A stretch of DNA of 64,000 nucleotides from Tichowtungia aerotolerans (GTDB lineage Bacteria; Verrucomicrobiota; Kiritimatiellia; Kiritimatiellales; Tichowtungiaceae). The notes under the pieces are model-generated. The model saw nothing but the letters and a program-made list of their open reading frames with translations, was not told where the DNA came from and made no database searches. A program made the translations under genes and the position numbers. The stretch covers positions 3,352,900 through 3,416,899 of the forward strand of contig NZ_CP047593.1 in the NCBI RefSeq assembly GCF_009905215.1, given 5' to 3'. Positions 29,769 through 62,120 of the stretch are shown here, one piece after another. Position 1 is the first letter of the stretch. Each line of letters begins with the position of its first letter.

Positions 29769-29850
<82 letters not shown>

Positions 29851-30009: not shown

Positions 30010-31320
30010 ATGGGACTGGAACTGAGACGGGATAAAAATCACAACCTCCGCTCGAAGTGGTGGTATGGCCGATACATGGTTGACGGGAAACGGCACTTCA
30101 CAAATCTGGGTGTCGAGGTGAAGGGAAAGGTGCCTGAAAACCTGCGCGAACGAGGTGACACGGCCTTTGAATGCTCCCGCACGCTGGCGGCGGCAAAGAT
30201 GAAGGAGCTGCTTGCCGAAGCGCATAACACAAAGACGGCGAAGCATCACCTGCAGGAGCTTTACGAAATTAAGGCGGGTGAAAACATTGCCCAGATTCCG
30301 CTGACGGAACTGGAGGCACACTGGGAGGTGCTGCCTACAAAGCGTAAGCGATCCGCTCAGCAGGCAAAAAACATGAAGGCGAATATTCGGATGTTTCGGG
30401 AGTACATCGAAGCGAATTTCCCGTCAGCAAAGCTGATGTCGCAGATTACCCGCCGGATGGCATTGGGCTGGATGAAGGACATTAACGATCAGGGACTGTC
30501 GGCGACCAGCTACAATGTAAAGCTGTCGCTCCTCCGTGGCATCTTTGAGCAGCTCGGGCCGGAAGCGGGCATGATTGCCAATCCGTTTGCGGGCATTCCC
30601 TACCGCGCCCTGAATACGGTTCATCGTCAGCCGTTCACCCAGGAAGAGCTGAACAAGATTCTGACTCACTGCGACCCGATTCTGCGTCCGGTGGTGCTGA
30701 CGGCCATGTGCACGGCGATGCGGCGCGGTGACTGCTGCCGGCTAAAGTGGGATTCCGTTGATCTGGCCGGCGGCTTCGTGACGGTGAAAACATCCAAAAC
30801 CGGCGAAGTAGCCGAAATCCCTCTGTTTCCGGTTCTACGGGCGGAACTGGAGCACCTGCCCCGCTCCAGTGAATACGTTTTCCCGGAAGCCGAGGAAATG
30901 TATCGCACCAACGTCCACGGTCTTTCATGGCGCTTTAAGAAGGCTCTCAAGGATGCCGAAATCACCGATACGGTGGTTGACCGGGAAGACACCCGCATGA
31001 AAGCCAGCGTGAAGGATTTTCATTCTCTGCGGACTACCTGGATTACAATGGCGCTCTCCGCCGGTGTGCCGATGGAGCTGGTTCGGCGGGTCACAGGCCA
31101 TTCCACTGTCGATGTGGTCTTGAAACACTATTTCCGGCCCGGCAAAGATGCATTCAAAGCGGCATTGGAAACCGCCATGCCGAAGATGCTGACCGGCGGG
31201 GAGCAGAAAAATGAGAAGCCGAAAGATGCCCTGCTTAAACTGATTGAACGGGCGGACAAGGTCTCAAAGAAAGATTTCGTGGCCAAGGTCGCCAAGATTG
31301 CCGAGGAAATGGCGGCGTAA
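30010..31320 (+). CDS. int: Tyrosine recombinase integrase
   Basis: A 436-residue site-specific recombinase catalysing integration at tRNA-Val. The N-terminal arm-binding and SAM-like core-binding domains (~90-195) precede a catalytic domain with Arg in AMRRGDCCRLKW (~238), Lys in TSKTGE (~263), HSLR (His338, Arg341), GHST (His364) and the nucleophile Tyr374 in LKHYF. AAGGAG lies 7-8 nt before the ATG. It is the only confident plus-strand gene of the element and sits 160 bp from attL. The lysine-rich C-terminal tail of ~50 residues is longer than usual. Confidence 0.95.
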   Translation: MGLELRRDKNHNLRSKWWYGRYMVDGKRHFTNLGVEVKGKVPENLRERGDTAFECSRTLAAAKMKELLAEAHNTKTAKHHLQELYEIKAGENIAQIPLTELEAHWEVLPTKRKRSAQQAKNMKANIRMFREYIEANFPSAKLMSQITRRMALGWMKDINDQGLSATSYNVKLSLLRGIFEQLGPEAGMIANPFAGIPYRALNTVHRQPFTQEELNKILTHCDPILRPVVLTAMCTAMRRGDCCRLKWDSVDLAGGFVTVKTSKTGEVAEIPLFPVLRAELEHLPRSSEYVFPEAEEMYRTNVHGLSWRFKKALKDAEITDTVVDREDTRMKASVKDFHSLRTTWITMALSAGVPMELVRRVTGHSTVDVVLKHYFRPGKDAFKAALETAMPKMLTGGEQKNEKPKDALLKLIERADKVSKKDFVAKVAKIAEEMAA

Positions 31321-34205: not shown

Positions 34206-35147
34206 TTAGCTGGCGGAGACGTTGATGCGTTTTGCGGCGGATTCGTTGGAAACCTGGACGTCTTCGGACCAGTCGAACTTGGCGACTTCGACGCGGCCAT
34301 CGTCGCGCTGGTAGGAGCCGGGAACCATGAAGCGGTTCATGAGCCGGAAGGTCTTCATGAAAGACGGATCGCGGCGGGTCGGCTGCGCTTTGCGGGCAAA
34401 GACGAGCACGGCGGAATCGAGCAGGAATTTGACATCCTCATCGACGCCTTCGGGCGCATCGTCAAACACCATGTAGCTGGTGCGCACTTCGGGCGAACCG
34501 ATGAACAGCTCTCCGGCGTTGGCCTGAGTCGGTACGGCAAGACCGACACCACTGCGGGCACCGGAACCGACAACAAAACGCCCGCGAACCTTGGTCTGAT
34601 TTTTGAACACGTTCCATGCGGACGCGCCGAACAGAACGCCGATGTTCATGAGCGAGCCGTATTTGCAGGCTTTGATGACATCAAGAATCGTGTCGTCAAT
34701 GTCGGCAACCGGATCGGCGGCATCGTTCCAAGTGGAATCCGCGCCAGGGCCGACGGCTTCGACGGCCAGGTCGATCACGGTTTTTTCGTGAGCCAGACCG
34801 GCGACTTCGGCGACGGCGACCGCGCCTTCGCGGAGCATGTTTTCCAGACCTTCTGCTTCGAGCTGTTCGAGATTATCCACCGGATAATCGAGAGCATGCG
34901 GGGAGCAGTTGAAGGTGGCATCGCTGACTTCGAAGCGCAGTTCGGACGCGCGGCCTCCGAGCGCACGAAGCGTCTTCGGAATGTGGAAGCGGTGCTTTTC
35001 GGTGTATTTCTTGAACCGTCCGGTCGAAGTCGGGACTTCGATGGTCGGGGCGATGAAGTCCGCCACGGGCATGATGGCGCTTTGAGCGGCACCCTGCGCG
35101 AACTGGCGGAGCATCGGACTGGAACTGATTGTAGTCAAACGGGACAT
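34206..35147 (-). CDS. Major capsid protein (HK97-fold candidate)
   Basis: A 313-residue protein with the style of HK97-fold capsid proteins: N-terminal IMPVADFIAPTIEVPTSTGRFKKYTEKHRF, a long spine-helix region (EGLENMLREGAVAVAEVAGLAHEKTVIDLAVEAV), MNIGVLFGASAWNVFKNQTKVRGRF, and the late PTRRDPSFMKTFRLMNRFMVPGSYQRDDG. It lies directly after decoration and protease/scaffold genes, the standard head order. No N-terminal delta domain is visible, consistent with a separate scaffold. Confidence 0.85.
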   Translation of the reverse strand: MSRLTTISSSPMLRQFAQGAAQSAIMPVADFIAPTIEVPTSTGRFKKYTEKHRFHIPKTLRALGGRASELRFEVSDATFNCSPHALDYPVDNLEQLEAEGLENMLREGAVAVAEVAGLAHEKTVIDLAVEAVGPGADSTWNDAADPVADIDDTILDVIKACKYGSLMNIGVLFGASAWNVFKNQTKVRGRFVVGSGARSGVGLAVPTQANAGELFIGSPEVRTSYMVFDDAPEGVDEDVKFLLDSAVLVFARKAQPTRRDPSFMKTFRLMNRFMVPGSYQRDDGRVEVAKFDWSEDVQVSNESAAKRINVSAS

Positions 35148-36638: not shown

Positions 36639-36660
36639 GGCCTAAGAGCAAAAATCAAAC
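36639..36660 (-). repeat. Start-associated repeat, copy 2 (portal stop/protease start)
   Basis: Minus-strand GTTTGATTTTTGCTCTTA, directly abutting the protease ATG; its TGA is the portal stop codon. Confidence 0.6.
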
Positions 36661-37803
36661 GGACTGTTTTTCAGTGAGGGTGTAGCCGGTCTTTTCGGAA
36701 AGCTCGGCGGGGTCGATCTGCATACCGGCGGACTTGAGATCAATCGCATCCTGCACCACCTGGCTGGTGGCATGATTGAGACCGGGCGAAAACTCGAAAT
36801 ACGCCAGCGGCGGCTGTCCGGGAAAAAATTCAGCGAGAAGCGGCACGTCAATCGCGTTCTGCAAAACACCCGCCAAGGTGACGGCGTCTGACTTGGCGAT
36901 CTGAAGGAAGCTGTCCTGATGCGCACTGCCGGCGAGCGTTCCGCTGCCGGGCTGGGCAAGCATGGTCAGCAGTCCGCCGGTGGCGGCAATGGTGATCTGC
37001 TCATCGAGATATTTGATTTGTTCCTGAAACGGCGGCTTCTCGCCTCCGCCGGTCACAAACTTAATGTCACTCTCATGCGGCAGGAATCCTCGCCCGTTGG
37101 AAAGAATTTGCTCGGCGACGGCCTGATATTCCTTTTGTTTGGCTTCGTCTGCGTTGGGAGGCCCGACCAGGAAGATTGAGGGAATGCCATAAACCGAGAG
37201 GAAGGAATCCCAGTCTGATTGCGACAGGTTTTTGCGCAAATAGAGAACACTCAGGATGCGGTCGAGTGCCGGTGCCTCAAGGAGAACAAAGTTTTCCGGC
37301 TTGATGGACTCGCCGCGCCGGTGGCCGGAGACCGCTCCAGCGTTGTATTCCCAATCGCCGAACAGGCCGTCGCGCACCCAGAACCATTGTTCGACGGGCT
37401 CAAGGCGTTCAATTAGGCCGCCGGGTGTCCAATGTTTTTCGAGGTGGGCAAAGCCCCGGAAGAAACCGGTGAAGAGGAAGGAAACCGCTTCGCGAAAATT
37501 ATCGATGCTGTCATAGACCATGCGCAGGAAGTCGGCCTGCTCCTGGGCGAGCACATTGTCCTGTTCCTGCGAAACGATGCGCACATCCCAATCGAGAGAA
37601 AGCAGCGCAGCGCGGCGGCGCTGAATGACCGAATGGATCATCGCGTCGGAACGTTCCATGTAATAATAGAACCATTGGAGGTCGGCATACTCGCCGCGCT
37701 CCCCGGATTCCTGCAGGGCGACCAGCCTCTGCATGTTCAGCCCGCGCAACGGGTTGGTGGAGTCGCGATAGCCGTGGTCTTTAGTTGAGCAGATGTAGCG
37801 CAT
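36655..37803 (-). CDS. Portal protein, Mu gp29/DUF935 family
   Basis: A 382-residue protein; the ring of this protein forms the DNA channel of the head. Family features: DLQWFYYYMERSDAMIHSVIQRRRAALLSLDWDVRI, FLRMVYDSIDNFREAVSFLFTGFFRGFAHLEKHW, and NFVLLEAPALDRILSVLYLRKNLSQSDWDSFLSVYGIPSIF. Somewhat shorter than Mu gp29 (512), mainly at the C-terminus. It lies between TerL and protease, the usual Mu-like head order. Confidence 0.88.
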   Translation of the reverse strand: MRYICSTKDHGYRDSTNPLRGLNMQRLVALQESGERGEYADLQWFYYYMERSDAMIHSVIQRRRAALLSLDWDVRIVSQEQDNVLAQEQADFLRMVYDSIDNFREAVSFLFTGFFRGFAHLEKHWTPGGLIERLEPVEQWFWVRDGLFGDWEYNAGAVSGHRRGESIKPENFVLLEAPALDRILSVLYLRKNLSQSDWDSFLSVYGIPSIFLVGPPNADEAKQKEYQAVAEQILSNGRGFLPHESDIKFVTGGGEKPPFQEQIKYLDEQITIAATGGLLTMLAQPGSGTLAGSAHQDSFLQIAKSDAVTLAGVLQNAIDVPLLAEFFPGQPPLAYFEFSPGLNHATSQVVQDAIDLKSAGMQIDPAELSEKTGYTLTEKQSV

Positions 37804-37822: not shown

Positions 37823-37846
37823 TGCCGTAAGGCGAAAAATCAAATC
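37823..37846 (-). repeat. Start-associated repeat, copy 3 (terL stop/portal start)
   Basis: Minus-strand ATTTGATTTTTCGCCTTA right after the terL stop, ~20 bp before the portal ATG. Confidence 0.6.
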
Positions 37847-39116
37847 AGCCGGGCAGAATGCGGGGACGTTTAGCGAAGGGTGAAAAGCGGCCTCTGGGCG
37901 TGAGCGGCAGCATCGGGCCGACAGATTCGGTTTCCCAACGGCGGTGATTGGCGAGAGCGAGTGCCATCACGCAATCGTCGTGGAATCCCGCCGGGGCGTT
38001 GTACGAAAACCGTCCACGGGCCGAAATTTCGTATTCGTACCGCTGCATCTCGTTAGTGAGAACCTGCCACTCTTCCGGCCAGCTCACCCGCTGTTGTTCG
38101 ACGGCAACAATGAGCCGTTGGACCAGTTCCACTTTGGATTGCGCCGTGAATTTAAACGGTTCGATGTTGGAATACCGTCGCGCCAGATCGTCATAGATCG
38201 GGTCGCCGGCGCCGGTCGCGTCCAGAATGATGCGCCCGCGCCATTTGCGGGCGAACTCAAGGATGCGGTCTTTTTGGATCGGCCAGTCGAGCTGGTTGAA
38301 GCGTTCCATGTCGAAGCAGCGGCCCGTCCGCTGATTCATGGCGACAAGCACGGTAAAATCGGTATGCTTGGCGACATCGCATCCGATGACCACCGCCCCC
38401 GCGCGGTCTTCGCGGGTCAAAGCTCCTTGAGGGAACAAACAGGACGAGACGTTTCGGAACACCCCTGCGCTATCTTCAAGGAACTGCGCTTCGTATTCCT
38501 GCTTGAACACATCGGCAGGCAGAGTCCGTTTGGCATCCTCCCATTCCAAAGACGGAAAGTAAGGGCTGTCCGAGCTGGGGAATTGGAAAGCTGCGTAGTC
38601 CGGCTCTGCCGGATCTTCGCCGCGAGTGAACAGATCGTAGAACCAGTTTCGGCCCTTCGGGGTCGAAATGAACACGGCCCAGCCCAACGTCTGAGCAATC
38701 GTCGGGCGCAGGATGTAGTTCCACACATCCGGCGGCACGACGGCGGCCTCGTCCACCACCACGCCGCGAAAGCCGTAGCCGCGAATATTTTCGGGGTTGT
38801 CGGCAGAGAGGAACCAGATGCGGGTCGTGCCATACGGGCCGTCAAACTCGGCGCGGGTCGGAGTGCGCCCGACGAACCGCACAAAACCACCGGCAATGTC
38901 GCGCAAGGCTTCTTTGCCGCGCTCGGCGACGTTGTAGGTCGGCGCAACCCAGCCATAGTCGCCGGGAGCTAAGGCTCCTCGGTCGAGCAGCTCTCCGGCA
39001 AGGCAGAGGGTTTTCCCGAAGCGTCGCCCGGTGCAGATAACGCGGAAGCGTCTGTCGCGGGCGTCGTGGATAATCTGTTGCCCTCGGTGGGGACGGTAGT
39101 TGAGAGTGATAGCCAT
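37845..39116 (-). CDS. terL: Terminase large subunit
   Basis: DNA packaging motor. I choose the ATG at 39116 (MAITLNYRPHRGQQIIHDAR), giving 423 residues. ATPase motifs: Walker A CTGRRFGKT (~27-35) and Walker B GVVVDEAA. Nuclease domain: VVIGCDVAKHTDFTVLVAM and ILDATGAGDPIYDDL. The first 148 bp overlap the 3' end of the small terminase gene in another frame. Confidence 0.92.
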   Translation of the reverse strand: MAITLNYRPHRGQQIIHDARDRRFRVICTGRRFGKTLCLAGELLDRGALAPGDYGWVAPTYNVAERGKEALRDIAGGFVRFVGRTPTRAEFDGPYGTTRIWFLSADNPENIRGYGFRGVVVDEAAVVPPDVWNYILRPTIAQTLGWAVFISTPKGRNWFYDLFTRGEDPAEPDYAAFQFPSSDSPYFPSLEWEDAKRTLPADVFKQEYEAQFLEDSAGVFRNVSSCLFPQGALTREDRAGAVVIGCDVAKHTDFTVLVAMNQRTGRCFDMERFNQLDWPIQKDRILEFARKWRGRIILDATGAGDPIYDDLARRYSNIEPFKFTAQSKVELVQRLIVAVEQQRVSWPEEWQVLTNEMQRYEYEISARGRFSYNAPAGFHDDCVMALALANHRRWETESVGPMLPLTPRGRFSPFAKRPRILPG

Positions 39117-39358
39117 GAGACGACTCCATCGTTTTCGATTTGCAAAGACGCTTCTTTGGGAAGCAGCGGCATGATGATGCGGCGGAAGAACCAAACGGGA
39201 TCACGCTCCAGCGACTTCTGGAGTCCATTGCGAAGAGTTTGCATCGTGGTTTCATCGCCGAGCATCTCGTCGAGCGTGTCGAGCGCGAGCATGCGCCCAG
39301 CGCCCGATCCTCTGGGTCGGCCTGCGGGATTTCCTGATTGTCCGGGCTTAAATTTCAT
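38969..39358 (-). CDS. terS: Small terminase subunit candidate (DUF5681-like N-terminus)
   Basis: A 129-residue protein beginning KFKPGQSGNPAGRPRGSG, the DUF5681 motif common in small terminase-like proteins, followed by a helical region (MLALDTLDEMLGDETTMQTLRNGLQKSLERDPVWFF). The last ~49 residues (Ser/Thr/Pro-rich, low complexity) overlap terL in a different frame, so the tail is probably constrained by terL. It is the first gene of the head block. Confidence 0.7.
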   Translation of the reverse strand: MKFKPGQSGNPAGRPRGSGAGRMLALDTLDEMLGDETTMQTLRNGLQKSLERDPVWFFRRIIMPLLPKEASLQIENDGVVSWLSLSTTVPTEGNRLSTTPATDASALSAPGDASGKPSALPESCSTEEP

Positions 39359-39381
39359 GCCCTAAGGTGAAAAATCAAACG
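39359..39381 (-). repeat. Start-associated repeat, copy 4 (terS start)
   Basis: Minus-strand GTTTGATTTTTCACCTTA directly abutting the terS ATG, with no gene upstream to explain it as a coding remnant. Confidence 0.6.
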
Positions 39382-40255
39382 ACAGCCTGAGGGCGGTGTT
39401 TGCCGTTTCACTTTGTTTCACTGCCGTCGCTTCGCGCCAGCCACTGCCTACGGCGGTCAAATTGTTTCAGGTTTCCTGTTAAAACAGGGAAAAACAGGGG
39501 GCGCGGAGCGCCCGCGACGCGCCGGAAGGGGGGTCCCTCCGGGGGGAAACCAAGAATGTGAAACATTCTGAAACGGAGCGGACTCCGTCGTTCCAGTCAG
39601 TCGATGCATCTTCGATGTCCACCCACCCCCGCCCTTCGGGCACCCCCTGCCTCCGTCCGAGGGTCGGAAGGATTTTGTCCGGGGTTTGGAAAAAATCCGG
39701 CCCCGCGTTCCGATGGTTGGAAAATTTCCGCTTCCAGTTTTGCCGCTGCGCTTCTTTTCGGGAATACGAAAAGCACTTTCGCCCCGCGCGGCGGGTCTCA
39801 GGTCCGAGCATTGGAAAATCTGGGGCTTGTTCTTCCAGAGCTTGGAAGAATTCCTTCCAAGGGTTGGAAAAATCCGACGGATTTCTTCCAGACATTGGAA
39901 AAAATACCGCGCCCCCGGCAAGGGAGGCCGAAGGCCGCGACGCTATTGCGGCGAACTTTTCCGAAGGCGGCGGCAAGGGAGGGAACCGCAGAATGACGAA
40001 CAAGGAATGCCGAATCCTGAAGGTTGGAAATTCGCCGGTGTGGGTGGGATGAGATTCGCCGCCGAGGAAATTCCCGTGGGGGTGAACGGAAGCGGTGGGC
40101 GTGGAGCAATAGCATAGGCGGGAGGTCGGCTGGGCGTTGCGCGTCGCCGCCTCGGGACGTGCTGCTTCCCGCTACGTTTCGCAGGACCGAATCCCGGCTC
40201 CGCTTTGCGCCGCGCCTGCCGCTGGAGTGAGACACCACCCCCACTGGACTTGACT
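39382..40255. other. Non-coding GC-rich stretch with hairpins and clustered palindromes
   Basis: No convincing gene on either strand; the long open frames are stop-poor GC artefacts without domain or ribosome site. It contains hairpins such as CCTGTT/AACAGG, GGGCGC/GCGCCC and AGAATGT/ACATTCT (39553-39569), plus three 15-bp TTCCA/TGGAA palindromes between 39833 and 39900. It may be the leader of the late transcript, since the sigma-like regulator and head genes lie on either side. Confidence 0.5.
39833..39900. repeat. Cluster of three 15-bp TTCCAnnnnnTGGAA palindromes
   Basis: TTCCAGAGCTTGGAA (39833-39847), TTCCAAGGGTTGGAA (39855-39869) and TTCCAGACATTGGAA (39886-39900), with weaker copies at 39708-39722 and 39802-39815. 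Same motif as the copies scattered through the whole window. Confidence 0.75.
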
Positions 40256-40259
40256 TAAA

Positions 40260-41230
40260 CACGGGGCTGGCGCGGTTTGTGCCGCGACGAAGGAGCAGCA
40301 GAAACCGTGACAGCTATGGGGAAAAGGGGTGAGGCCGAAGGCCGAGGGGAAAACGGGGCACCGAAAGGGCGTATTCGCCCGAAGGTCGCTGGGGTTTCCC
40401 CTTTTATGCTACGAGACAATACCTCCGAAGCCCGAAGGGCGGAGAGCGAGGCGGGCCTGACAGAACCAGTTCTGTTGAGTGAACCGGCCAATCCAAAGGA
40501 CACGTCGCATAATGGGGCCATTATGCCTGATGTTTCCGGTCCTTCTGAGTTTACGAAGAAGGTTGGATGGCCGGTGAACGTGCCCGCCGCTGCAAGCTCC
40601 TTTGGCCGTGAAGGAGCGACAGCGACTGAGGGGCCTGAGAAGGCCGCTGAATTCCAGTAAGCATGGCGTTGGAACTGAAGCGGCCATAGACCACCCCCCG
40701 GAGGGAGGTCCGCGCAGCGGACAGCCCGAGGACGACCGCCCCGGGACATGATGTGTGAAATTCGGACGGTTACGAGACCGAAGGGCGAGTGATCCGTACG
40801 GATGAGCACATGATGTTTCGGGATCAGCGGGCGGCCGAGGTAGGAAGCCCGTGAAGCGATGGACTGAATGAGCTCACCGGACTGACGTCTGCGAATAGCA
40901 GGCCGAAGGACGGTTGAGCGAAACAGGACAGCGCTTGACGGGCGATCATGGTGGCGCTTGTTCCGCCACCCGACAATCTGAGCGGATGCGATCCGAGGGA
41001 GGGCAACCGGAAGACAGTCTGAAAGCAAGAATGGGGGTTCCGTAGGAAGCGGTTCCATTCTTGATTTCAGTCTGGCGACGGTTCCAAAGCCCGACCGAAG
41101 GCGGAGACCAACGAGCCGAGCTTTGAAGACAGCCGAACGTCTGCCGGAACGAGGTACGAGAGACGGCAGTAGGCAGGCTGGATGAAAAGGACGGCTGGTT
41201 GGGCGCCGTACAGCAGGAAATCATGACAGT
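40260..41230 (+). ncRNA. Candidate ~1-kb structured non-coding RNA (strand tentative)
   Basis: No coding potential, but dense helices. A three-way junction is closed by ACCGGCC-a-ATCCAA (40483-40496) with TTGGAT-GGCCGGT (40563-40575). It holds GCATAATG/CATTATGC (40507-40526) and CCTTCT/AGAAGG (40541-40562). Further stems: GCTCCTT/AAGGAGC (40596-40617), GGTGGCG/CGCCACC (40950-40970), a 15-bp stem with one mismatch (41019-41034 with 41055-41070), CTGCCG/CGGCAG (41141-41169). Many CCGAAGG and GCCCGAAGGGC mini-hairpins. Loops and joins on the plus strand are A/G-rich, as in structured RNAs, which is why I put it on plus, opposite to the neighbouring genes. Large ornate RNAs (GOLLD, ROOL) are known from phages; I cannot assign this to either. 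Confidence 0.5.
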
Positions 41231-41234
41231 GTAT

Positions 41235-41702
41235 TCACTGGCAGGATTTCTGCCAAGACGGACGACGGGAACGCCAACGCTGACGCTTCGCCGCCTTCTC
41301 AGGAAACAACGCACGAAGAATCGGAAAATCACGCATAGCCATCTTATGGCGCATATCGGCAAGCTGGGTGGACGTACCCTGACGTTCGGCAATGTCCTTG
41401 TACCGCAAACCCTGAAACCGCCACGCAACAACATCGCGTTGCTCGGGGGGAAGCTCCATCAACGCTTCAACAAACTTCGATAAAACCTCAACCGGCATCT
41501 CCTCCGCCAGCGGAACGGTTGATTTCGTACGCTCAAACGCCGGATGCTCGATAGGCTCCAGAGGGCGATCCGTATCAAGGTAGACTGAATAAAACGTATC
41601 CTCACCCAGCTTGCAGGTCGCACAAGGCATCGCGCCCCAGGGAACGCCGTCATAATCACCGCGCAGGATGGCTTCGGAGTACTGACAGGAATGACAGGTC
41701 AT
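41235..41702 (-). CDS. Sigma-like transcriptional regulator with zinc-binding N-terminus
   Basis: A 155-residue protein. Start at 41702 with GGAGG 6 nt upstream. N-terminal CHSCQY...CATCKLGED looks like a zinc site. The later LMELPPEQRDVVAWRFQGLRYKDIAERQGTS matches sigma-70 region 4 helix-turn-helix ('LP..qR.v...r..glsy.eIAe..g.s'). It probably activates the late block downstream. It sits between the candidate RNA and the repeat-rich origin-like segment. Confidence 0.7.
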   Translation of the reverse strand: MTCHSCQYSEAILRGDYDGVPWGAMPCATCKLGEDTFYSVYLDTDRPLEPIEHPAFERTKSTVPLAEEMPVEVLSKFVEALMELPPEQRDVVAWRFQGLRYKDIAERQGTSTQLADMRHKMAMRDFPILRALFPEKAAKRQRWRSRRPSWQKSCQ

Positions 41703-41732
41703 AATACACCTCCGGCGCAGAGGGAGAAAGTA

Positions 41733-41981
41733 ATGACGCGCCCGAAGGGATAATGACGCGGACAAGAGAGCCAAAAGCGCGTCATCATAGGGAGAGAATT
41801 TTTAATGACGCGGAACATGACGCGCAGGAAACCACTGCAAACAGGGCTCTGCGTCATCTGCGTCATTATACCATTAGTATTAGAAATATAATATAAATAG
41901 GGAAAACCGCCCCCCAGCGTGTCCGAACAGGGCGAAATACGCGTCTGAGAGACTTTTTCAAATATGATGTCACATGACGCG
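41733..41981. repeat. Iteron-like cluster: eight TGACGC motifs around an AT-rich segment
   Basis: ATGACGCG at 41733, 41753, 41805, 41817 and 41974; inverted CGCGTCAT at 41778; GCGTCAT at 41851 and 41860. Between them 41863-41900 is almost pure A/T. The layout resembles a replication origin with a DNA unwinding segment, or operator sites for the adjacent regulator. Confidence 0.6.
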
Positions 41982-41987
41982 CTCGGG

Positions 41988-44093
41988 CTAAAACGGGACT
42001 TTTTCATCGTCATCTCCTTGTGAAAGCTGTGCGATATTGATGTCCCAAATCCGGGTAGCATGTTGGCGACGCTGGGAAAGTGGATAGCCTTGGGATGCGA
42101 GCTTGGATAATTCCCGTCCGACCTGACGGGTGGTGTATTTAGAAGCGATACCGGCGAGACCGTCCTGATCGTTCAGCATGGCCGAAAGAAGCTCGGTCGC
42201 CGAACCGGTCCAGACATCGGAAACCTGTCCCTCGAAAAATTTCAGCAACACTTCAAGGAACGAATAGGCACTGGATGAATGACGCGCCGCCTCGAACAGA
42301 GACGCTTCGCAATACGTTTGAACACCGTAGCGGGAATCACCCAGCACGTGATCCGGCGGCGACCAGTCGAGAAGCCATCGCAGGAGAAACGGCAACTCCG
42401 CCTGAATAATGTCCGCCACATTGTTGGGAAAGGTAAAGGTATCCCGCTCCGCCACACGGAAGAGATTGATTTTATCGCGGTTCGACAAATCCACATCGGG
42501 AAGAATACGAATCGACTCCGGGTCGGTGTTACAAGTCACCACCACACGACCGTTCCACTCGATCAGTTTGTCCACGCGATATTTTTCACGAACAGAAAAG
42601 GTACGATTGGCCGCCATCTTCTTAATCAACGCGGAAAACTTGAGATGAGATTTGTTATCGGTCAGAGGAACGACATCATCGACCGCCCAGACGGCAGAAT
42701 TAAACAGGTGCGAATTGAAACCGTCTTCACCGGACAAAAACGACGAAGCATCAATATGGCCGCCGAAAGTGCGGGAGAGAATCAGGGTCGAGAGCAGAGT
42801 TTTTCCAGTGTTCGGAACGCCGGCAAAAAAGGACGCCTGACCGGGAAGCATTTTTCCGGCAAGAGCGGAAGAATACCAACGCCGCAACCAGGCATAGAAA
42901 TAATCGAGCTGCTCTGCCGGATCGAACAGGGAAGTAAAATAAGAATTCAACCACGGGAAATCGGTGTCGGGATCGACCTCTGTTTTCTCCGAAGGTTGCA
43001 TGACCGAAACCGTGGAAATATTCAAAACCCGGAAACCATTGACGTACACAATCCCCTTCGGGCGATGGATCAACGGTGCCGCACATTCAATGGCCTGCTC
43101 ATCCTGAATTTGGGATAACGCCTGATCGACTTCACTAATGGATGAACCTCTCGGAACTGCCGTACTGAGGCCCCGCTTCACCTTCAGAAACAGAGCCATA
43201 TCCGATTTGTTTTTCGCCTGCCACTTACCGTTGGAAAGCTGCACCCAATAATCACGACCGTCAAAATAAGCTGAGGAAACCGCTCCCCCGATCTGATCGG
43301 CCTGGAACTGACGTACGAACTTCCCGCCGAGAATTGCCGACCACGGAACGAACGCCTGTCCTCCGGTAAAACATTGCATCCCGGACTCACGGATGACCGC
43401 CGCTGTTTCATTGTCGGCTGACGCATCCCAGAACCGGGCACCGCGCACGCCGACTTCAAACTCACCCTGCCATTGTCCCGGATATTGTTTTTCAACTTCT
43501 GCCGCGATCAGCTCCATCGGGATCGAAGGACCTAATTTTTTCCATGCGTAGTTATGGGTCGATTCAACCGCCCACTGCATCATGAAGGGAGCCGGAATTA
43601 CATCGTCCGACAGATGAACCCATTCCGTACCGGCCTCGTAGTATTTTGCCGGATCTTCAAAGGCATCCGTATCGAGACCAACCAGAATTTTTGAGAGCTT
43701 GAGTTTTTTCTTAACGTGCTTGAGCAGCTTCGCCGTCAGATCATTTTTGTGCAGCGGAAAGGGTTTCTCCAGTTTCCACAGTAATCGAGCACCGCCTGAA
43801 AAGGTTCGGCAGATGTATTGGGGTTTGAAATCTCCACACCGTTCCAAAACCGTGTCGCGCATGTGTTGATCGATCTGTCCATCGTAGTCGGCAACCAGCC
43901 AGTGCAGGAAGACCGCCGGATTGTTTTTGGAATCAATGCGGGATGCGGCGACCAATCCTTCGAGACCAGAATAAAAACAGTGATCCACATCGGGTTTGTT
44001 CCACTTTGTTTTCCGAGGTGCCTGAGTCGTTGTATTCCACGGTTCACATTCGGTGGCATGACAGGAGGATAAATTTTTGAGGGATAAAAGCAT
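41988..44093 (-). CDS. Primase-helicase (D5-like superfamily 3 helicase)
   Basis: A 701-residue protein. The N-terminal half resembles archaeo-eukaryotic-type primase modules (LHWLVADYDG; YICRTFSGGARLLWKL; LVGLDTDAFEDPAKYYEAG). The C-terminal half is an SF3 helicase: Walker A FAGVPNTGKTLLS, Walker B AVWAVDDVV, and VVVTCNTDPESIRIL (motif C with sensor Asn), followed by a winged-helix-like end. It would start replication of the element. A TTCCA-type palindrome (42803-42817) coincides with the Walker A codons. It is 10 bp from the polymerase gene. Confidence 0.85.
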   Translation of the reverse strand: MLLSLKNLSSCHATECEPWNTTTQAPRKTKWNKPDVDHCFYSGLEGLVAASRIDSKNNPAVFLHWLVADYDGQIDQHMRDTVLERCGDFKPQYICRTFSGGARLLWKLEKPFPLHKNDLTAKLLKHVKKKLKLSKILVGLDTDAFEDPAKYYEAGTEWVHLSDDVIPAPFMMQWAVESTHNYAWKKLGPSIPMELIAAEVEKQYPGQWQGEFEVGVRGARFWDASADNETAAVIRESGMQCFTGGQAFVPWSAILGGKFVRQFQADQIGGAVSSAYFDGRDYWVQLSNGKWQAKNKSDMALFLKVKRGLSTAVPRGSSISEVDQALSQIQDEQAIECAAPLIHRPKGIVYVNGFRVLNISTVSVMQPSEKTEVDPDTDFPWLNSYFTSLFDPAEQLDYFYAWLRRWYSSALAGKMLPGQASFFAGVPNTGKTLLSTLILSRTFGGHIDASSFLSGEDGFNSHLFNSAVWAVDDVVPLTDNKSHLKFSALIKKMAANRTFSVREKYRVDKLIEWNGRVVVTCNTDPESIRILPDVDLSNRDKINLFRVAERDTFTFPNNVADIIQAELPFLLRWLLDWSPPDHVLGDSRYGVQTYCEASLFEAARHSSSAYSFLEVLLKFFEGQVSDVWTGSATELLSAMLNDQDGLAGIASKYTTRQVGRELSKLASQGYPLSQRRQHATRIWDINIAQLSQGDDDEKVPF

Positions 44094-44102
44094 GGGGTCT
44101 CC

Positions 44103-45995
44103 TTATTTGGTGTATCGGTTAAAAATTCCGGCTTCGGCATCGACGGGACATCCGGACAGCCACTCCGGCGTGGTCTGCATGATTTTGAGGATTTGTTTTT
44201 TCGCTCCCTCTGCCTGTTCTTTGGGGACTTCAACGATCACTTCGTCGTGAACGTGAAAAACGATTCTTCCAATGCCTGAACGGTGGATTTCTAAAAGATG
44301 TTCAGCGAACAGATCTCTTGCGGTGGCCTGGACAAGATTTTCACAAAGCAGTCCGCCGTACACGCTCCGCTCCCGTCCTCCCCGAACGGTTCTGGCCGCA
44401 AAATATCCACGCGGTGTTTTGTGAACATCGAAATAGTTCAAGCATCGCCCGGAAGGCAGCTCGATTGAATAGTCACCACCTGCGCTTCGTTTAAAATCCC
44501 GGTCCAGTCTGTTCCAGAGTCTGGAAATTTTCGGATTCTTAGCCCGGAAATCGGCAACGGTTTGTTTTGCTTCAGCGAATGAGAGTTCAATCCCTCCCAG
44601 ATTTTTCGCAACGGTCATAAATTTTTTCGGGCCGCATCCGTACCCCAAACCCAGCACACGGGCTTTCGCCAGCGAGCGCATTTCAGGGTCTTTTTCTTTC
44701 AGGGGCTCTGCGTCGCTGTATCCCATCGTCGCACGAGCATGCGCTTCGTAAACATCCACACCATCCTGAACAAGAGAGAGGAATTCATGGTCATCAATCA
44801 GCCATGCGAGAATGCGGGGTTCAATTTGAGACAGATCGGAAATGACAAACACACATCGTTGCCGCTCCCCTGTCGGGTCGCTTCTTTTGTCTCCGCCAAA
44901 AGCACTTTCGCAATAGCTCAGGTCGCTCGGTATGAAACATTTCCGAAGGTCTGCGCCGAACAGTTCGCCTCTCGGCATATTCTGGACATTGAACCCGGCG
45001 TCGCCGGACCATCTTCCGGGGACTGCCCCGAAATATTTCATTCCATAAGGAAATCGCCCTGCGGCCGTTTTCCTTTGTTTGGAAGATGAAGACGGTGCGG
45101 ATTCGGAACAAGGCAGGCTGGAAGCCTGCGATACGGGAACAACCCTATTACGGACGGTGTAGAATCGGGAAAGCAGCATGTTGGTTCTGCGGAAAATCCG
45201 CATCGCATTTACCCAGGGATACTCATCGCCGTATTTTTCTTCCCACTGTTCACAAAGCGGTGAATCCATCGCCAAGGATGCCGGTGCCGGGATACCTGCC
45301 TTTCGACATTCGAGCGCAAGCTGACGGTGTGACAACGGAGTGTCTTCATTAAAATCATCCACCCAGGGCAAAAGCTGAACCGCATCGAACCGCTGTTTTT
45401 CCAAGGTCTGGATACATTTTTCCAGAGTCTGGAAATCAACATGGATTCCCTGTTGTCCCCATTCAAACGTCAGCGTTGCCAGCACCTGTTCATCCCTCGG
45501 CCAAAGGTGATGATGTTTTTCCCAAAGCAGGAAACAGAGACGTGCATCCTCCAGCGCATAGTCGGTCATGGCATTGTCTTTAAACAGATCGCCGGTGGTT
45601 TGTCCGCACGCTTTGCTTCGTTGGGTTTTGTCCACCTCGATACCGAGAAGCTCTTTACACGCGCCTTTCAAGTTTCGGGGTGCTTGCAGGTACACCGCCA
45701 TTGATGCGGTGCATCTCCAGCCACCGGGTTGAATCGGCGGAATGATTTTCTGTTCCTGAAGCCGCTTGAAAACCAATGAGTCAAAGGCTGCGTTGTGCGC
45801 CAGCAGCAAAGCACCTTCCAGTTTTTCCCAGCATTGGAAATCTTTCGGATGTCCTACCCATTGGAAATCGTCGCCGTAGATCGACATGAGATAGGCATCA
45901 AATTTCGGATGGTGAACATAGCTCCACGCATCCATTTTTTTCAGGGAGTAGCCTCGGTCGTAAAATGTTTCAAAGTCGATAGCGAATACAGACAT
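44103..45995 (-). CDS. Family A DNA polymerase with 3'-5' exonuclease domain
   Basis: A 630-residue phage-type polymerase. Start chosen at 45995 (MSVFAIDFETFYDRGYSL). Exonuclease motifs: DFETF, LLAHNAAFDSLVF and DYALEDARL. Polymerase motif A: FVISDLSQIEPRILAWL; motif B helix: RSLAKARVLGLGYGCGPKKF; motif C: FHVHDEVIVEVP. No Shine-Dalgarno precedes the ATG; instead a TTCCA/TGGAA palindrome (46002-46016) occupies that place. Four more copies of the palindrome lie inside the gene, two in tandem encoding repeated TLEK. Confidence 0.93.
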   Translation of the reverse strand: MSVFAIDFETFYDRGYSLKKMDAWSYVHHPKFDAYLMSIYGDDFQWVGHPKDFQCWEKLEGALLLAHNAAFDSLVFKRLQEQKIIPPIQPGGWRCTASMAVYLQAPRNLKGACKELLGIEVDKTQRSKACGQTTGDLFKDNAMTDYALEDARLCFLLWEKHHHLWPRDEQVLATLTFEWGQQGIHVDFQTLEKCIQTLEKQRFDAVQLLPWVDDFNEDTPLSHRQLALECRKAGIPAPASLAMDSPLCEQWEEKYGDEYPWVNAMRIFRRTNMLLSRFYTVRNRVVPVSQASSLPCSESAPSSSSKQRKTAAGRFPYGMKYFGAVPGRWSGDAGFNVQNMPRGELFGADLRKCFIPSDLSYCESAFGGDKRSDPTGERQRCVFVISDLSQIEPRILAWLIDDHEFLSLVQDGVDVYEAHARATMGYSDAEPLKEKDPEMRSLAKARVLGLGYGCGPKKFMTVAKNLGGIELSFAEAKQTVADFRAKNPKISRLWNRLDRDFKRSAGGDYSIELPSGRCLNYFDVHKTPRGYFAARTVRGGRERSVYGGLLCENLVQATARDLFAEHLLEIHRSGIGRIVFHVHDEVIVEVPKEQAEGAKKQILKIMQTTPEWLSGCPVDAEAGIFNRYTK

Positions 45996-46067
45996 GGCAG
46001 TTTCCAGAGGTTGGAAGGTTGAAAAAAGGGAGAGGCGCGCCCGGAGGTCACGCCCCACCCATCCGGG

Positions 46068-53079: not shown

Positions 53080-56000
53080 TCAACTCACCAGCTCCATGAG
53101 CTTGCCGTAGCTGTCGACAACGTCGTATTTGACTTGGTCGGTGGTGATTTTTGAGAAGAATTTTTTGGCGCACTTGATTTTGCACTGCTCAATTTCACGC
53201 AATTCCAGCGAGGACATGGAGCCTTTGGTTTCGGCAATGAAGTAGATGTGCTTGACCGTGCCCTCTTTAAAGGCGATGGCCCAGTCCGGGTTGTAGTTGC
53301 CGACCGGCGTGGGAATGGAGAAGCCTTTGGGCAGTTTGGCGTAGACCACGACCTCGGCGCTGGTGTCGAGTGTCCGAACGAACTCGGTTTCATTTTTGGA
53401 GTCGGTAAAGACGTAATCGTAGATATGCCGCTCCGCTTTGACCGCCTTTTTAAAATCTTCCTGCGGTTTTTCGGCAGTAAAGATGTCGCTATCATAGCGT
53501 TCTTCAATCGGATCATAGGCAAGGTGCTCGACGATGACGGTCGCCTTCTGCTCATTGATGATGCGAGCAGCCTTATTGAGGAAGTCTTCAGGATTGGCGC
53601 GATATTGAACGAATACGGAGGCGCGCATCTGTTTGAGGATAGCGGCAATGGTACGGCGCGTCAGACAGGTATCTTCCGCCAAGCGACCCAGCAGATCGTA
53701 TTCAACGGCGGAATGCGCCGTGCTATTGAGTTTTTGCGTGGCCGTCTCTTTGATGGCGAAGCCGGAACCGCTTTTGAGTCCCTCGTATGAAATTTTGTCA
53801 CCCTGAACGCCGCTTTCGACCACATACTGCAAACGAGCGATTTTCAGGTCGGCATTCAGGTGTTCCACGCATTTACCGACCAACTCGTCCGTATCAAACT
53901 CCACGGTGTAGGCAGCCTTGCGGTTGATCTTTTCCCACAGGACTTTGAATTCCGCCTTTTCAAAATTTTTGTTGAGCGGGTTAGGTTTTACTGTCCGGCC
54001 ATTTTCAAATTCGGGCAGCATGGCATCGCTGAATACGCTGTCGATCAGGCGTACAATCTGGGGCGCGTATGGCTGCAGGCTTTCAGGAAGTTCTGCGAGC
54101 GATTCTGAATCCTTGGCATCGTGATAGGTCTTGGTGATTTCCTTCTTCGAATCGACGTACTGATTCTGGATCAGATAGAAATAGAGGTCGGCGGCCATCT
54201 GGTCTGATACCTCCACGTTGCCCTCAGCGGTGCGCAGAACCTTACCCTTAAAATAGGCTTCGTCGGCCTTGCGCGGACGGGCAGAAAGTGAATCGGCGAT
54301 TTCTTTCTGAAGACTTGCAGTAAAATCCTTGTAGCTCTCGCTGGCGATGACCGTGAGGCGGTTAATGTGATGCACTGTGGCACCGCATGAAAGCGGGTCC
54401 ATGCGGTCGCCGGCCTGGTTTACACAAAGACGAAGGCCGCGTCCGACCTCCTGCCGCTTGCGGATGGTGCTGTCGCTGTGCTTCAGCGTACAGATGACAA
54501 ACACATTCGGATTGTCCCACCCCTCGCTCAATGCGGAGTGGGAGAAAATAAAGCGCACCGATTCATCCAGCGAAAGCAGGCGTTCCTTGTCTTTCAGGAT
54601 CAGATCGTAGGCGTCGACATCGTCGGCCTGTTTTTCTTCGCCGCGTCCTTTCACCTTCGGGTCAATGAGCCGCTTGCTCTTTTTATCGATGGAAAAATAG
54701 CCGTTGTGGGTTTTGTGAACGGGAATGTGCTGGAGGTAGTGTTTATAGGGATTGTCCTCCAGCTCCAGATATTCATTAAGCGCCTGACGGTATTCCTCCT
54801 CGAACATCTGGGCGTATTCGCCGGGCAGCTCCTCGGAATCTTGGTACTGACGATATTTGGCAACCTCGTCGATGAAGAACAGGGAGAGTGTTTTGATGCC
54901 CTTGTAGAAGTTTTCCTCTTCCTTCTGCAGGTGGGCGCGAACCGTTTCGCGGATCTGGATGCGGCGCAGTGTGTTTTCGTTGATGTCGCCGGACGCTTCG
55001 CCGGAGCGCAGCTCCGCGCCGTTTGAAAAGGTAACGGTATCGGTAACTGCGTCAATATCGGTCACGACAAAGTCCCGGTACTGATCCAGATTGCCGGACA
55101 GCTCATAGAGCTTGTCGCCCTTGCCGAAGCGCTGAACCACGCGCTTAATGCCGCTGGACTGCCGTTTTTCAAATTCAATGCGGGCAACCGGCGGCTTGGA
55201 GGCGGAAACCTGTATGCCCTCCAGATAGAGATAGGCGTTGGTGCCGGCCAGACCTTTGACGGAGATGCCGCGCACGGCGATCTTTTTGACCAGCTTGCGG
55301 TTATAGGCATCGAGCGCATCCAGGCGGTGGATTTTGTTGTGCTCGGTTTTGTGGGTGGCGGAATAGCGCAGGATGGCCAGCGGGTTGAACTCCTTCAGGG
55401 ATTCCGCCGTCTTTTTACCTTCGAGCTTTTGCGGCTCGTCGAGAATCAGAACGGGATGGTTTTTCTTGATGACATCAATGGGGCGGCGCGACTGAAAATC
55501 GTCCAGTTCCTCATAGATACGTCGGGCATCCTTACCACGAGCGGCAAACGCCTGTGCGTTAATGATCATCACATTGATTCCGCCGTCCGACGAAAAGCTC
55601 TCCACCTTGTGAAGCTGTTTGGAGTCGTAAATGAACGGGCGGGCCTGCTTGCCGTATTCCTCCATGAAGTGTTCGGCGGTGATTTCGAAGGATTTTGCGA
55701 CTCCTTCGCGGATGGCGATGGAGGGAACCACCACAATAAACTTGGACCAACCGTAGCGGCGGTTCAGCTCGAACATGGTTTTGATGTAGCAGTAGGTCTT
55801 GCCGGTACCGGTCTCCATTTCGATGTCGAGATTGACCGGACAGGACGGCTTGGAAACAACAGTCGGGGACAGAGGCAGGTTCTGGCGGTGCTGGACGGCG
55901 TGGATATTTTCCAGCAACTGCCCCAAATTGAGCTTCAGCTCATGATTGCGGAAACCGGGCAAATCGGGGTCGGTGGTAAATTCCGTCTGGCCTTTGCGCT

Positions 56001-56124
56001 CCTTACGAATGCCAGGGTCGAGACGGTACTGCGCCCGCTCCACCTTGGGCTGCCCGCAAAAGCAATCCACGACCGATTCGACAGCGTCGGTTTGGTAGTC
56101 CTGTTTGGTAAACTTGAGCTTCAT
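53080..56124 (-). CDS. res: Type III restriction enzyme, Res subunit (helicase-nuclease)
   Basis: A 1014-residue SF2 helicase: motif [16 protein letters not shown] (~102-116), motif Ia [13 protein letters not shown], motif [13 protein letters not shown] (DEPQ in place of DEAD/H), motif III RYSATHK and motif [13 protein letters not shown]. The C-terminal nuclease has the PD-ExK core: NPDWAIAF then IAETKGS. It cuts DNA when partnered with Mod. Its ATG shares a base with the mod stop (TAATG). Last gene of the cargo operon. Confidence 0.93.
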
Positions 56125-58076
56125 TAGATGGACTTCACTTCCGTGCCGGGGGAGAGGGTTTTGAAGAGCTGTTCGACGTTGTGTTTGAGGGAGTCGTCGA
56201 AGGCGTCGTCACGGAAGACGGCGCGCAGCGGCTTGTGGGCGGCCATCTTTTTGACGGTCTCTTCGGACAGCTCCAGATCGAAACAGGCCAGCAGGTCGTT
56301 TTCGTTGACCAGCCAGACGGCTTTGCCGTCGATGGACTGCTTTTCGATTTTTGCGGAGAGCGGGACGCCCCAGTCGAGCATCACCTGGAAGAGCAGGTCT
56401 TCCGCTGTGCGGTCTTCCTTGATGTGGGCAGTAAACAGATCGAGGTCTTCTTGCTTGAGCTGATCCGGCGTGTACCACACGTCGTTCATGTTGGACTCAT
56501 CCACCTTCAGCACCCGGAAGCCGACATCGGGCATTGCCGATTGCGGATTGTCGATTGCCGATTGATCGCTCAACAAATCCGGCTCTTTGGCAGCCGCTTT
56601 TTGCTTAGCCTCCAGCTCCTCTTTGATCTTCTGTCCGGCCCGGCGAATACGCTCTTTGCCGACTTCGGCAATCGTTTTATACCCCGCCTTAAATGCTTCG
56701 CTCTTTTCATCACAGGCTTCCGGCAACTGAACCATGATGTACTTTCGGTTGCCGCCATCCGCAGCGTTCATTTTCATAACAGCATGCGCAGAACTTGCTG
56801 ACCCGGAAAAATAGTCCACAAGTATGTCGGATGGCCCCGTTAATCCGACCTGCAATAATTTAACAATAAAATTTGATGGCTTGGGGAAGCTGAATATCTG
56901 TGCGTTTCCAAACAGTTCTATAATTTCGTTAGTCCCGTGTTGTGTAAAAACATCATCGATTAATGAAAATGCTTTCCCCTTGCGCATTACTCCTTTGCGA
57001 TCTTTCAGATATTGCTTTGTATGTACAGTCCACCCTCCGCTTTTACTCTTTAAAAACTCAAGCTCTCCACATGCCAGAGCATCTTCGACACGATCCTTAC
57101 CCCAAAGCCATTGGCGCTTGGGGTGAACTTCAGAGCCATCGGGCGCAGGTATCGGAAACACCAAATTTTTACGTTCTCCCATGCTTTTGGTCGCTTCAAG
57201 TGGATGGGTACGATACGGGCCACGGACAGAGAAATTTTGATCCTTCTGCTTGTAGTACCTTTTGATGGACTCTTCCGTTAACGGCACCTCGATGTTCGCT
57301 AAGTTTGATGCGCTTTTTGCATACATCAGGGCATACTCATGTACTGAAATCAAAAACTTCTCTTTTGCGCCGCCACCATATCGTTTTTTCCAAATGATGG
57401 AGTCGATAAAATTCTCTGTGCCAAAAACCTCATCGCATAGTTTTCGAAGGCTGGAAACCTCATTATCATCAATCGAAATGATCATAACGCCATCATCCCG
57501 AAGCAATTGATGGGACAGCCGCAATCGCGGCATCATCATCGTGAGCCAATCCGAATGATAACGACCATTAGACTCTAGGTTGGCAACCAACCGTCCGCCT
57601 TCTTCATCCTTCTGCCCTGAATCGAGCTCATACTCGTCCTTGTCGGCAGTAAAGTTGTCCGCATAGATAAAATCCTGCCCGGTGTTGTAGGGCGGATCGA
57701 TGTAGATCATTTTGACCTTGCCGAGGTAGGTTTCCTGGAGGAGCTTGAGGGCTTCGAGGTTGTCTCCTTCGATGTAAAGGTTTTCGGTGGAGTCGAAGTC
57801 GACGGATTCTTCGCGGCAGGGGCGCAGGGTTTTGTTGATGGGGGCATTGGCGGTGGCAATGGCTTCGCGCTTGCCGGGCCAGTTGAGCGAATAGCGCTCG
57901 GCGGGGCCTTCGACGACATCGGCGGAGAGCTCCTGACGCAGGAGGTCAAAATCGACGGAGCGTTTCAGCGTGCCGTTGTCGTCCTCGGCTTCGGTGATGC
58001 AGCCGGGGAAGAGCGCGGCGATTTTATCGATGTTCATTTCCACCCCGTCGGGGCTTTTCATATCCAGATTTTCCAT
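56124..58076 (-). CDS. mod: Type III DNA methyltransferase, Mod subunit
   Basis: A 650-residue beta-class adenine methyltransferase. Start chosen at 58076 ([20 protein letters not shown]), GGGAG upstream; the open frame further upstream overlaps the DUF4391 gene. Motif [16 protein letters not shown] comes before motif [15 protein letters not shown], the beta-class order. The target recognition region lies between (~300-430) and is noticeably more AT-rich than its flanks (56.77-57.60 kb), as expected from exchange of specificity. It methylates the site that Res checks. Confidence 0.93.
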
Positions 58077-58095
58077 GCGTATCTCCCAAGAACTA

Positions 58096-58743
58096 CTAGC
58101 TGATTTTCTCCAGCTCAGCGGACAGTGTACGGATTTCAGCGTTGATTTCGACTTTTCGATTAAACTGTTTCTCTTTTTTGAGGCGGCTCTGGAGCTTTTT
58201 GAGCTCGTTTTGCTTTTTGCGGGCCAGATTGAGCCGCTGAACCATTTCCCCCAACGGTTCGTCTTTACGCGGAGAGTTTCCAATGATTGGAAGCATCATC
58301 TGCTCGTAAAGCGCTTTGATGTTCAGCGCGACGGGCAACGGGTCTTCGCCCGGAGTCTTCAGCCAGTCGGTTTCGAAGCGTCCGCCAATGACCCAGTTTT
58401 TGGTCCCGTCTGTGGCGGGGCGTTTATAAGCCGCAACATTCTTGACCTGCCTCTGGCTGAGCAGCCGAAAGATGATGGGGTACGGGATGGCTTTATCAAT
58501 CGAGTCCAGTACCGCCACATCGAGCTTGTCGGCTCGCAGGCGGATGTCGAAGACCTCAATTTCCGAATAGCCGCCTTTGGCTGGAAGTTTGAGGGTTTCG
58601 CGGGACAGTTTGTATGCCCAGATGATTTCTTCGACCTGCTCCACAAAGAGGCTCTTTACCTTTTTGGACGGGCGGGCTTTGGAATAGATCAGGCTTTTAG
58701 GGACCGTTTTGCCGAAGGCCGCTTTTTGAGGATAGGCAAACAC
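58096..58743 (-). CDS. DUF4391 protein of the restriction operon
   Basis: A 215-residue protein matching DUF4391 (KAAFGKTVPKSLIYSK, VEEIIWAYKLSRETLKLPA, FDIRLRADKLDVAVLDSIDKAIPYPIIFRL, then KRPATDGTKNWVIGGRFETDW) and ending in a coiled coil (RLNLARKKQNELKKLQSRLKKEKQ). To my knowledge DUF4391 genes recur between such helicase and mod genes; biochemical role unknown. A TTCCA/TGGAA palindrome lies inside (58278-58292). Confidence 0.85.
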   Translation of the reverse strand: MFAYPQKAAFGKTVPKSLIYSKARPSKKVKSLFVEQVEEIIWAYKLSRETLKLPAKGGYSEIEVFDIRLRADKLDVAVLDSIDKAIPYPIIFRLLSQRQVKNVAAYKRPATDGTKNWVIGGRFETDWLKTPGEDPLPVALNIKALYEQMMLPIIGNSPRKDEPLGEMVQRLNLARKKQNELKKLQSRLKKEKQFNRKVEINAEIRTLSAELEKIS

Positions 58744-58744
58744 G

Positions 58745-62017: not shown

Positions 62018-62120
62018 CTCATCCCTAACTGGCGCGACTTTCCAATGATTGGAAACTTTGTACACTTTTTTTACCAAGCGTGGAAGCGAAGGCTGAAACA
62101 ATCTGAAAAAGTACCGCGTT

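Follow-up and report, generated by a model that had tools for sequence, protein, structure and literature searches.

The window that we analyzed, a 64,000-nucleotide stretch corresponding to positions 3352900-3416899 of the single-contig 3.88 Mb genome of Tichowtungia aerotolerans (order Kiritimatiellales), contains a prophage that adjoins a tRNA-Val gene (29769-29845) and a phage integrase gene (30010-31320). The genes of the prophage are on the minus strand, and a predicted RNA of about 1 kb that sits amongst them is on the plus strand. An earlier note on this DNA had set it between the late regulator and the head genes, and this placement is confirmed: the RNA lies between a gene for a sigma-70 region 4 protein and the small terminase-like and terminase genes; the gap without a recognised gene runs from 39359 to 41234 and is longer than that note had stated. 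The features of the locus, in window coordinates, are the following.

34206-35147, minus strand: major head protein (profile matches)
36655-37803, minus strand: Mu-type portal (profile matches)
37845-39194, minus strand: large terminase gene (phrog_2, 8.2e-49; the listed ORF start overlaps the preceding gene)
38969-39358, minus strand: small terminase-like gene (DUF5681; PF18932, 4e-8)
39464-39560, no strand assigned: second conserved noncoding block, ~700 bases before the 5' end of the RNA, kept in Pontiella
40262-41230, plus strand: predicted large structured noncoding RNA, its core conserved in three sister prophages and viral contig L045 (z -12, homologues, covariation)
41235-41774, minus strand: sigma-70 region 4 protein gene, convergent with the RNA (PF08281, 3.4e-8)
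41988-44093, minus strand: primase-like gene (profile matches)
44103-46058, minus strand: DNA polymerase A (profile matches)

Three diverged copies of the RNA are present elsewhere in the same genome (2574553-2575976, 2944413-2945312 and 704251-705262). These are 73-86% identical to it over the main aligned parts, and each lies at the same position in a prophage of the same layout. Further members were identified in genomes of the same genus, in Pontiella and on four viral contigs, and one (L050) comes from a MAG that is labelled as proteobacterial. Two successive covariance models of the 5' domain, R1 and then R2 (39 sequences), find members well beyond the order, in several families of the class, and at least 29 of the 346 class genomes have a match at E <= 1e-3, the weakest of which are unconfirmed. 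Because only 10-12 candidates were scored per genome where genomes were many, these genome counts are lower bounds. In a phylum sample of 388 genomes spread evenly, the only genomes outside the class among the matches listed were G135 and G177, and both were rejected as members since the matches are hairpins of attC sites. Searches of INPHARED and PLSDB returned no match to the RNA. A scan by primase added no new phage; one by TerL yielded phages L079-L081, two of which, L079 and L080, have P1-like hairpins solely on the strand of the genes and were not accepted as members. We also left out L246, a weak match that lies 2.7 kb from terminase genes and shares their strand. The pattern hits L047, L049, L055, L215 and L216 were chance. 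So were most of the pattern hits in the class, and of these we retained none that lacked a paired helix.

In those phage loci that were checked, the RNA lies just before the terminase genes, with the sigma-factor and primase genes on its other side, on the strand opposite to the late and terminase genes, and in nearly all phage loci it is directly beside the small terminase-like gene. One locus, L038, has a primase, the sigma gene, the RNA and an integrase, and nothing within 20 kb of it matches a terminase. The RNA also occurs in satellite-like elements that have an integrase, a primase and a repressor but lack capsid genes. Non-phage copies adjoin tyrosine recombinases, DnaG-like primase or HTH repressors (L162, L207), or RHS-repeat genes, recognized by Pfam in L240/L241 and by reading in L207, L242 and L243. 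Since its settings thus include phages, recombinase loci and RHS loci, the RNA travels with mobile elements and is bound to no single kind of them. Its presence in four prophages of one genome, its class-wide occurrence in non-phage elements and its orientation against the phage genes had not been foreseen in the earlier note. We also observed that L240/L241 (G205:C43) belong to a direct duplication of 12.8 kb that carries an integrase, a P1-like copy of the RNA and a protein of 1672 aa in which RHS repeats are combined with a peptidase C39 domain, and that in each of L165 (9914-11700) and L162 the RNA core is followed by several P1-like hairpins in tandem.

Folded as RNA, the plus strand of 40260-41230 has a predicted energy of -456.1 kcal/mol, compared to a mean of -368.1 (sd 7.3) for shuffled sequences (z -12.0), and the minus strand gives a z of -6.2 (20 dinucleotide shuffles per strand). 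The claim that a large structured RNA lies here is borne out both by this value for the plus strand and by helices that covary in relatives. The helices and domains predicted in it are listed below with the evidence for each.

40262-40358, plus strand: 5' domain, the most widely conserved part (matches models R1/R2)
40266-40314, plus strand: P1, 40266-40280 with 40300-40314 (covariation score)
40333-40343, plus strand: P2, GGCC 40333-40336 with GGCC 40340-40343 (both sides changed in four pairs, class-wide)
40346-40401, plus strand: P3, GGGGAAA 40346-40352 with UUUCCCC 40395-40401 (sequence comparison by eye)
40460-40475, plus strand: P4, ACAGAAC 40460-40466 with GUUCUGU 40469-40475 (by eye)
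40483-40575, plus strand: three-way junction closed by P6, 40483-40496 with 40563-40575 (doubly changed cells)
40498-40537, plus strand: P5b/P5 (covariation score)
40541-40562, plus strand: P7, CCUUC 40541-40545 with GAAGG 40558-40562 (alignment comparison by eye)
41019-41070, plus strand: 3' stem, 41019-41034 with 41055-41070 (doubly changed pairs)

The P1 core is UGGCGCG/CGUGACA, with a fixed G.A and a fixed G.U. In P6, ACCGGCC (40483-40489) pairs with GGCCGGU (40569-40575), and the helix continues across one bulged A as AUCCAA (40491-40496) with UUGGAU (40563-40568). The junction that P6 closes, which encloses P5b/P5 and P7, is exactly where the earlier note had drawn it, single bulge included, and it covaries in relatives. 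Within it, P5b pairs 40498-40506 with 40529-40537, and P5 pairs GCAUAAUG (40507-40514) with CAUUAUGC (40519-40526). The same note had described a 15-bp stem with one mismatch at 41019-41070; its place and its mismatch stand, and the stem covaries, but it is 16 positions long. From these comparisons the predicted architecture is that of a class-wide 5' domain (P1-P3), followed by P4, a P5 hairpin domain and then lineage-specific modules.

To ask whether pairing is maintained between homologues we counted cells in which both sides of a pair had changed, and compared these counts, and a covariation score, with shuffled controls. For P1, 53 cells had changed on both sides versus 17.6 in shuffles and the score was 0.359 versus 0.108, with 0 of 500 shuffles reaching either (25 distinct arm pairs, apical loop removed); its variable part reads GGUUU/AAACC in the window, GGCAU/AUGCC in L161 and UGAAACC/GGUUUCA in L165. 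When the 39-sequence alignment fitted to R1, which leans to the R1 structure, was used, the P1 count was 91 cells versus 26. P5/P5b scored 0.270 versus 0.118 in shuffles (0 of 500) across 12 sequences from phages and non-phage elements, P6 together with P5 had 16 doubly changed cells versus 6.1 (0 of 500), and in the 3' stem 7 of 16 pairs had changed on both sides in five sequences, versus 2.3 in shuffles (0 of 500). For P1, P2, P5/P5b, P6 and the 3' stem alike, none of the 500 shuffles matched the doubly-changed-cell count or score, and slid controls were all far below the observed values. The number of both-side-changed pairs, as distinct from cells, does not beat shuffles for P1, P5/P5b or P6. 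As MAFFT misregistered some helices, the arms of P1 and the 3' stem were trimmed before counting. P3, P4 and P7 were judged by eye, outside the count test, and paired changes are seen in each: P3 is GGGGGAG/CUCCCCC in a sister copy, P7 is CCGCUG/CAGCGG and CCCCGG/CCGGGG in relatives, and the P4 hairpin is present, with the order kept, in class-wide members. These shuffle and pair-count controls ignore phylogeny and relatedness, R-scape not having been run; a chance result is nonetheless unlikely given the breadth of the class, the several independent helices, and the up to four standard pair types found at a position. Stems without compensatory changes in homologues would, according to the earlier note, have refuted its reading, and such changes are present.

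Several properties point to the plus strand as that of the RNA. G-U cells outnumber A-C cells by 33 to 3 in P1 (24 of the 33 G-U cells at one conserved position) and by 13 to 2 in P5. Folding energy is clearly lower for the plus strand in 28 of 29 homologues, with a mean difference of 46 kcal/mol over all 29; in the remaining homologue, L208, a copy truncated after ~100 bases, the two strands are equal. The purine richness previously remarked on for the plus strand is confirmed by a GC skew of +0.19 and an AT skew of +0.18. Because part of the difference in energy between strands comes from positive G and A skew, we treat energy as support and not as independent proof; wobble pairs, folding energy and purine skew nevertheless agree on the plus strand. 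We are highly confident, from sequence comparison, that 40260-41230 specifies a plus-strand RNA whose structure is under selection.

The earlier note had called for a comparison with Rfam, naming GOLLD, ROOL and group I/II introns. No Rfam family, these included, was matched at its gathering threshold, and a search of the window stretch at E values up to 10 with permissive filters gave nothing credible, the list consisting only of eukaryotic miRNA/lncRNA models and one sRNA model, far below their own thresholds. For want of an Rfam match we do not file the RNA under GOLLD, ROOL or introns, and the possibility of a group I/II intron was dropped; the Rfam models recognise no catalytic core in it. 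It is long, noncoding and phage-carried with many covarying helices, and so meets the criteria for a large ornate RNA of phages and mobile elements. The suggestion that this is a large RNA of the phage kind, possibly of a new class, is therefore supported by the compensatory changes, the broken reading frames (see below) and the lack of an Rfam match, and we conclude that it represents a class of its own among the large structured noncoding RNAs that mobile elements carry, here those of Kiritimatiellia. No such RNA in Kiritimatiellota was reported in the literature that we searched, which mostly excluded subscription journals.

GOLLD rises during lysis, forms a 14-mer cage and in phages lies frequently, if not obligatorily, near tRNA islands, and ROOL forms an octameric RNA-only nanocage. 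The packaging RNA of phi29, which is structured and tied to DNA packaging, has ~174 nt compared to ~1 kb here and the Kiritimatiellia RNA has no Rfam match; membership in a phi29-like group was considered and dropped. Both GOLLD and ROOL are RNA-only nanocages held by kissing loops and A-minor contacts (PMC12286853). GOLLD, which phages and prophages carry, is a structured RNA of very large size and unknown function in which one region is universally conserved and the remainder is variable (PMC12286853; PMC7567579). The Kiritimatiellia RNA resembles it in size, in its phage and prophage setting and in having one conserved region with the rest variable, but its conserved domain is at the 5' end whereas that of GOLLD is at the 3' end, in our searches it was found only in Kiritimatiellia, and it is not beside tRNA islands. 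The sole tRNA in the window is the Val tRNA at 29769, at the integrase and ~10 kb from the RNA. ROOL is likewise a large phage and prophage RNA with many helices and no known function, often near tRNA islands, and the ROOL solved by cryo-EM has 659 nt (PMC12286853). The Kiritimatiellia RNA is likewise large and rich in helices and differs from ROOL in its length of about 1 kb and in having neither an Rfam match nor a tRNA island nearby. In the phage ICP1, which has no tRNAs, the most abundant transcript is a comparable noncoding RNA of ~800 bases from an ORF-less space of ~1 kb (PMC7567579). That RNA is at a lysis cluster in an unrelated phage, and our comparison with it consists only of the INPHARED search, which gave no match.

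Other explanations must be weighed against that of a large RNA. Its fixed place beside the terminase genes makes a role in packaging the main rival, with the locus acting as a pac or cos DNA site or its product docking on the portal in the manner of the much smaller phi29 RNA. Adjacency to the small terminase-like gene in phages fits such a role, as does carriage by capsid-less satellite-like elements, which is expected for hijacked packaging. However, the RNA and the terminase are on opposite strands, pairing is kept as that of a single strand, L038 has no terminase match within reach and the RHS-locus copies have none nearby; we consider packaging unlikely. There is also a slim chance that the locus is an antisense or cis-acting regulator, a plus-strand transcript that starts near the late operon, reads into the sigma gene from its 3' side and sets the early-late switch. 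While in phages the RNA does run towards the sigma-factor gene and away from the late operon, a simple regulator needs no covarying structure of ~1 kb, and the non-phage copies have other neighbours.

A further alternative is suggested by P1, whose core, with its fixed G.A and G.U, also makes up the variable hairpin in 17 attC sites of G177 and in three of G135. Loci L252 and L253 (G177) and L254 (G135) are Verrucomicrobiota integron cassette arrays with such hairpins, the shared element being the variable terminal hairpin core nGGCGYG...CRUGACn. The stretch could accordingly be imagined as a hairpin element acting at the level of DNA, either a mobile palindrome cluster or a set of attC-like single-stranded recombination sites, and the tandem P1-like hairpins of some loci (L165) and the tyrosine recombinases near several copies are in keeping with this. 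Yet only P1 is common to the two: the Kiritimatiellia RNA has no cassette arrays, and R'' and R' (GTTRRRY) boxes flank the hairpin in none of the family loci. Genome counts of the hairpin pattern are near or only modestly above the reversed control, not REP-like, and the reading as a REP cluster was dropped. The excess of G-U over A-C and the strand difference in energy fit RNA, and multi-helix junctions covary, which together make a DNA element quite improbable. That the stretch is a protein-coding gene, represented by the mechanically called ORF of 267 aa (minus strand) or that of 127 aa (plus strand), we can practically discount. Both ORFs exist, but in GC-rich sequence long frames arise by chance on either strand, neither Pfam nor PHROG has a match for the 267-aa ORF, and indels between homologues (1, 2, 10, 11, 13, 38 and 61 bases) are mostly not multiples of 3 and break the frames; with no ORF conserved in homologues, the absence of a coding signal reported earlier holds.

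We return, then, to a large structured RNA, and propose a mechanism for it by analogy with GOLLD and ROOL. The RNA would be transcribed as a separate unit in the lytic phase, an inference for which there are no transcript data, and its product would be the RNA itself and not a protein. It would fold and probably self-associate into a multimeric particle as GOLLD and ROOL do, although assembly has not been assayed, and this particle might serve the element late in infection as a scaffold for RNA or protein, or as a sink or shield for either. In four of six distinct P5 hairpins with four-base loops the loop is self-complementary (GAUC twice, AAUU and CGCG; binomial 2e-4, post hoc), though not in the window, where it reads GGGC; we take this as a weak hint of self-association. 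The multimeric late particle on its own remains tentative, and we would not rely on it. Our reading of a structured plus-strand RNA, its own lytic transcript and a GOLLD/ROOL-like particle, taken together, we judge to be somewhat probable. The fullest version, a new giant RNA class of mobile elements that is sequence-unrelated to GOLLD and ROOL, self-assembles, is shared by phages, integrase-primase elements and RHS loci, and is in part an attC-type hairpin, is a conjecture about which we are rather doubtful. The non-phage copies at RHS loci do not fit a purely lytic role.

To our knowledge only a handful of RNA families this large exist in bacteria and phages, and those of phages are without known function. 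A further, independent class of giant RNA offers a new test system for what giant phage RNAs do: its place, beside a sigma factor and terminase, is fixed, one genome holds four natural copies, and a cultured bacterium, Pontiella sulfatireligans, has a member. Were self-assembly to prove true, more than two origins of RNA cages would be implied.

Regarding the sequences that flank the RNA, we found no plus-strand promoter of the sigma-70 type for it, and the one promoter-like site, at 41256-41228 on the minus strand, is no more than expected by chance. This site lies in a conserved stretch at the 3' end of the RNA (41228-41256, minus strand) that is duplicated in the sister copy L028. Upstream, the block at 39464-39560 (GGGGCGCGGAGCGC...GGAAGGGGGGTCCCTCCGGGGGGAAACC) is very conserved, occurs in Pontiella too and is present twice in L039; it is possibly a late promoter or a packaging site. 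The palindrome TTCCANNNNTTGGAA occurs 41 times in the window (<=1 mismatch, both strands) versus 2.2 expected, for example at 39708-39900, and four of its sites are clustered upstream of the RNA. Elsewhere in the window, 53080-62101 on the minus strand carries what appear, by reading, to be type III restriction-modification genes and a SNF2-type helicase.
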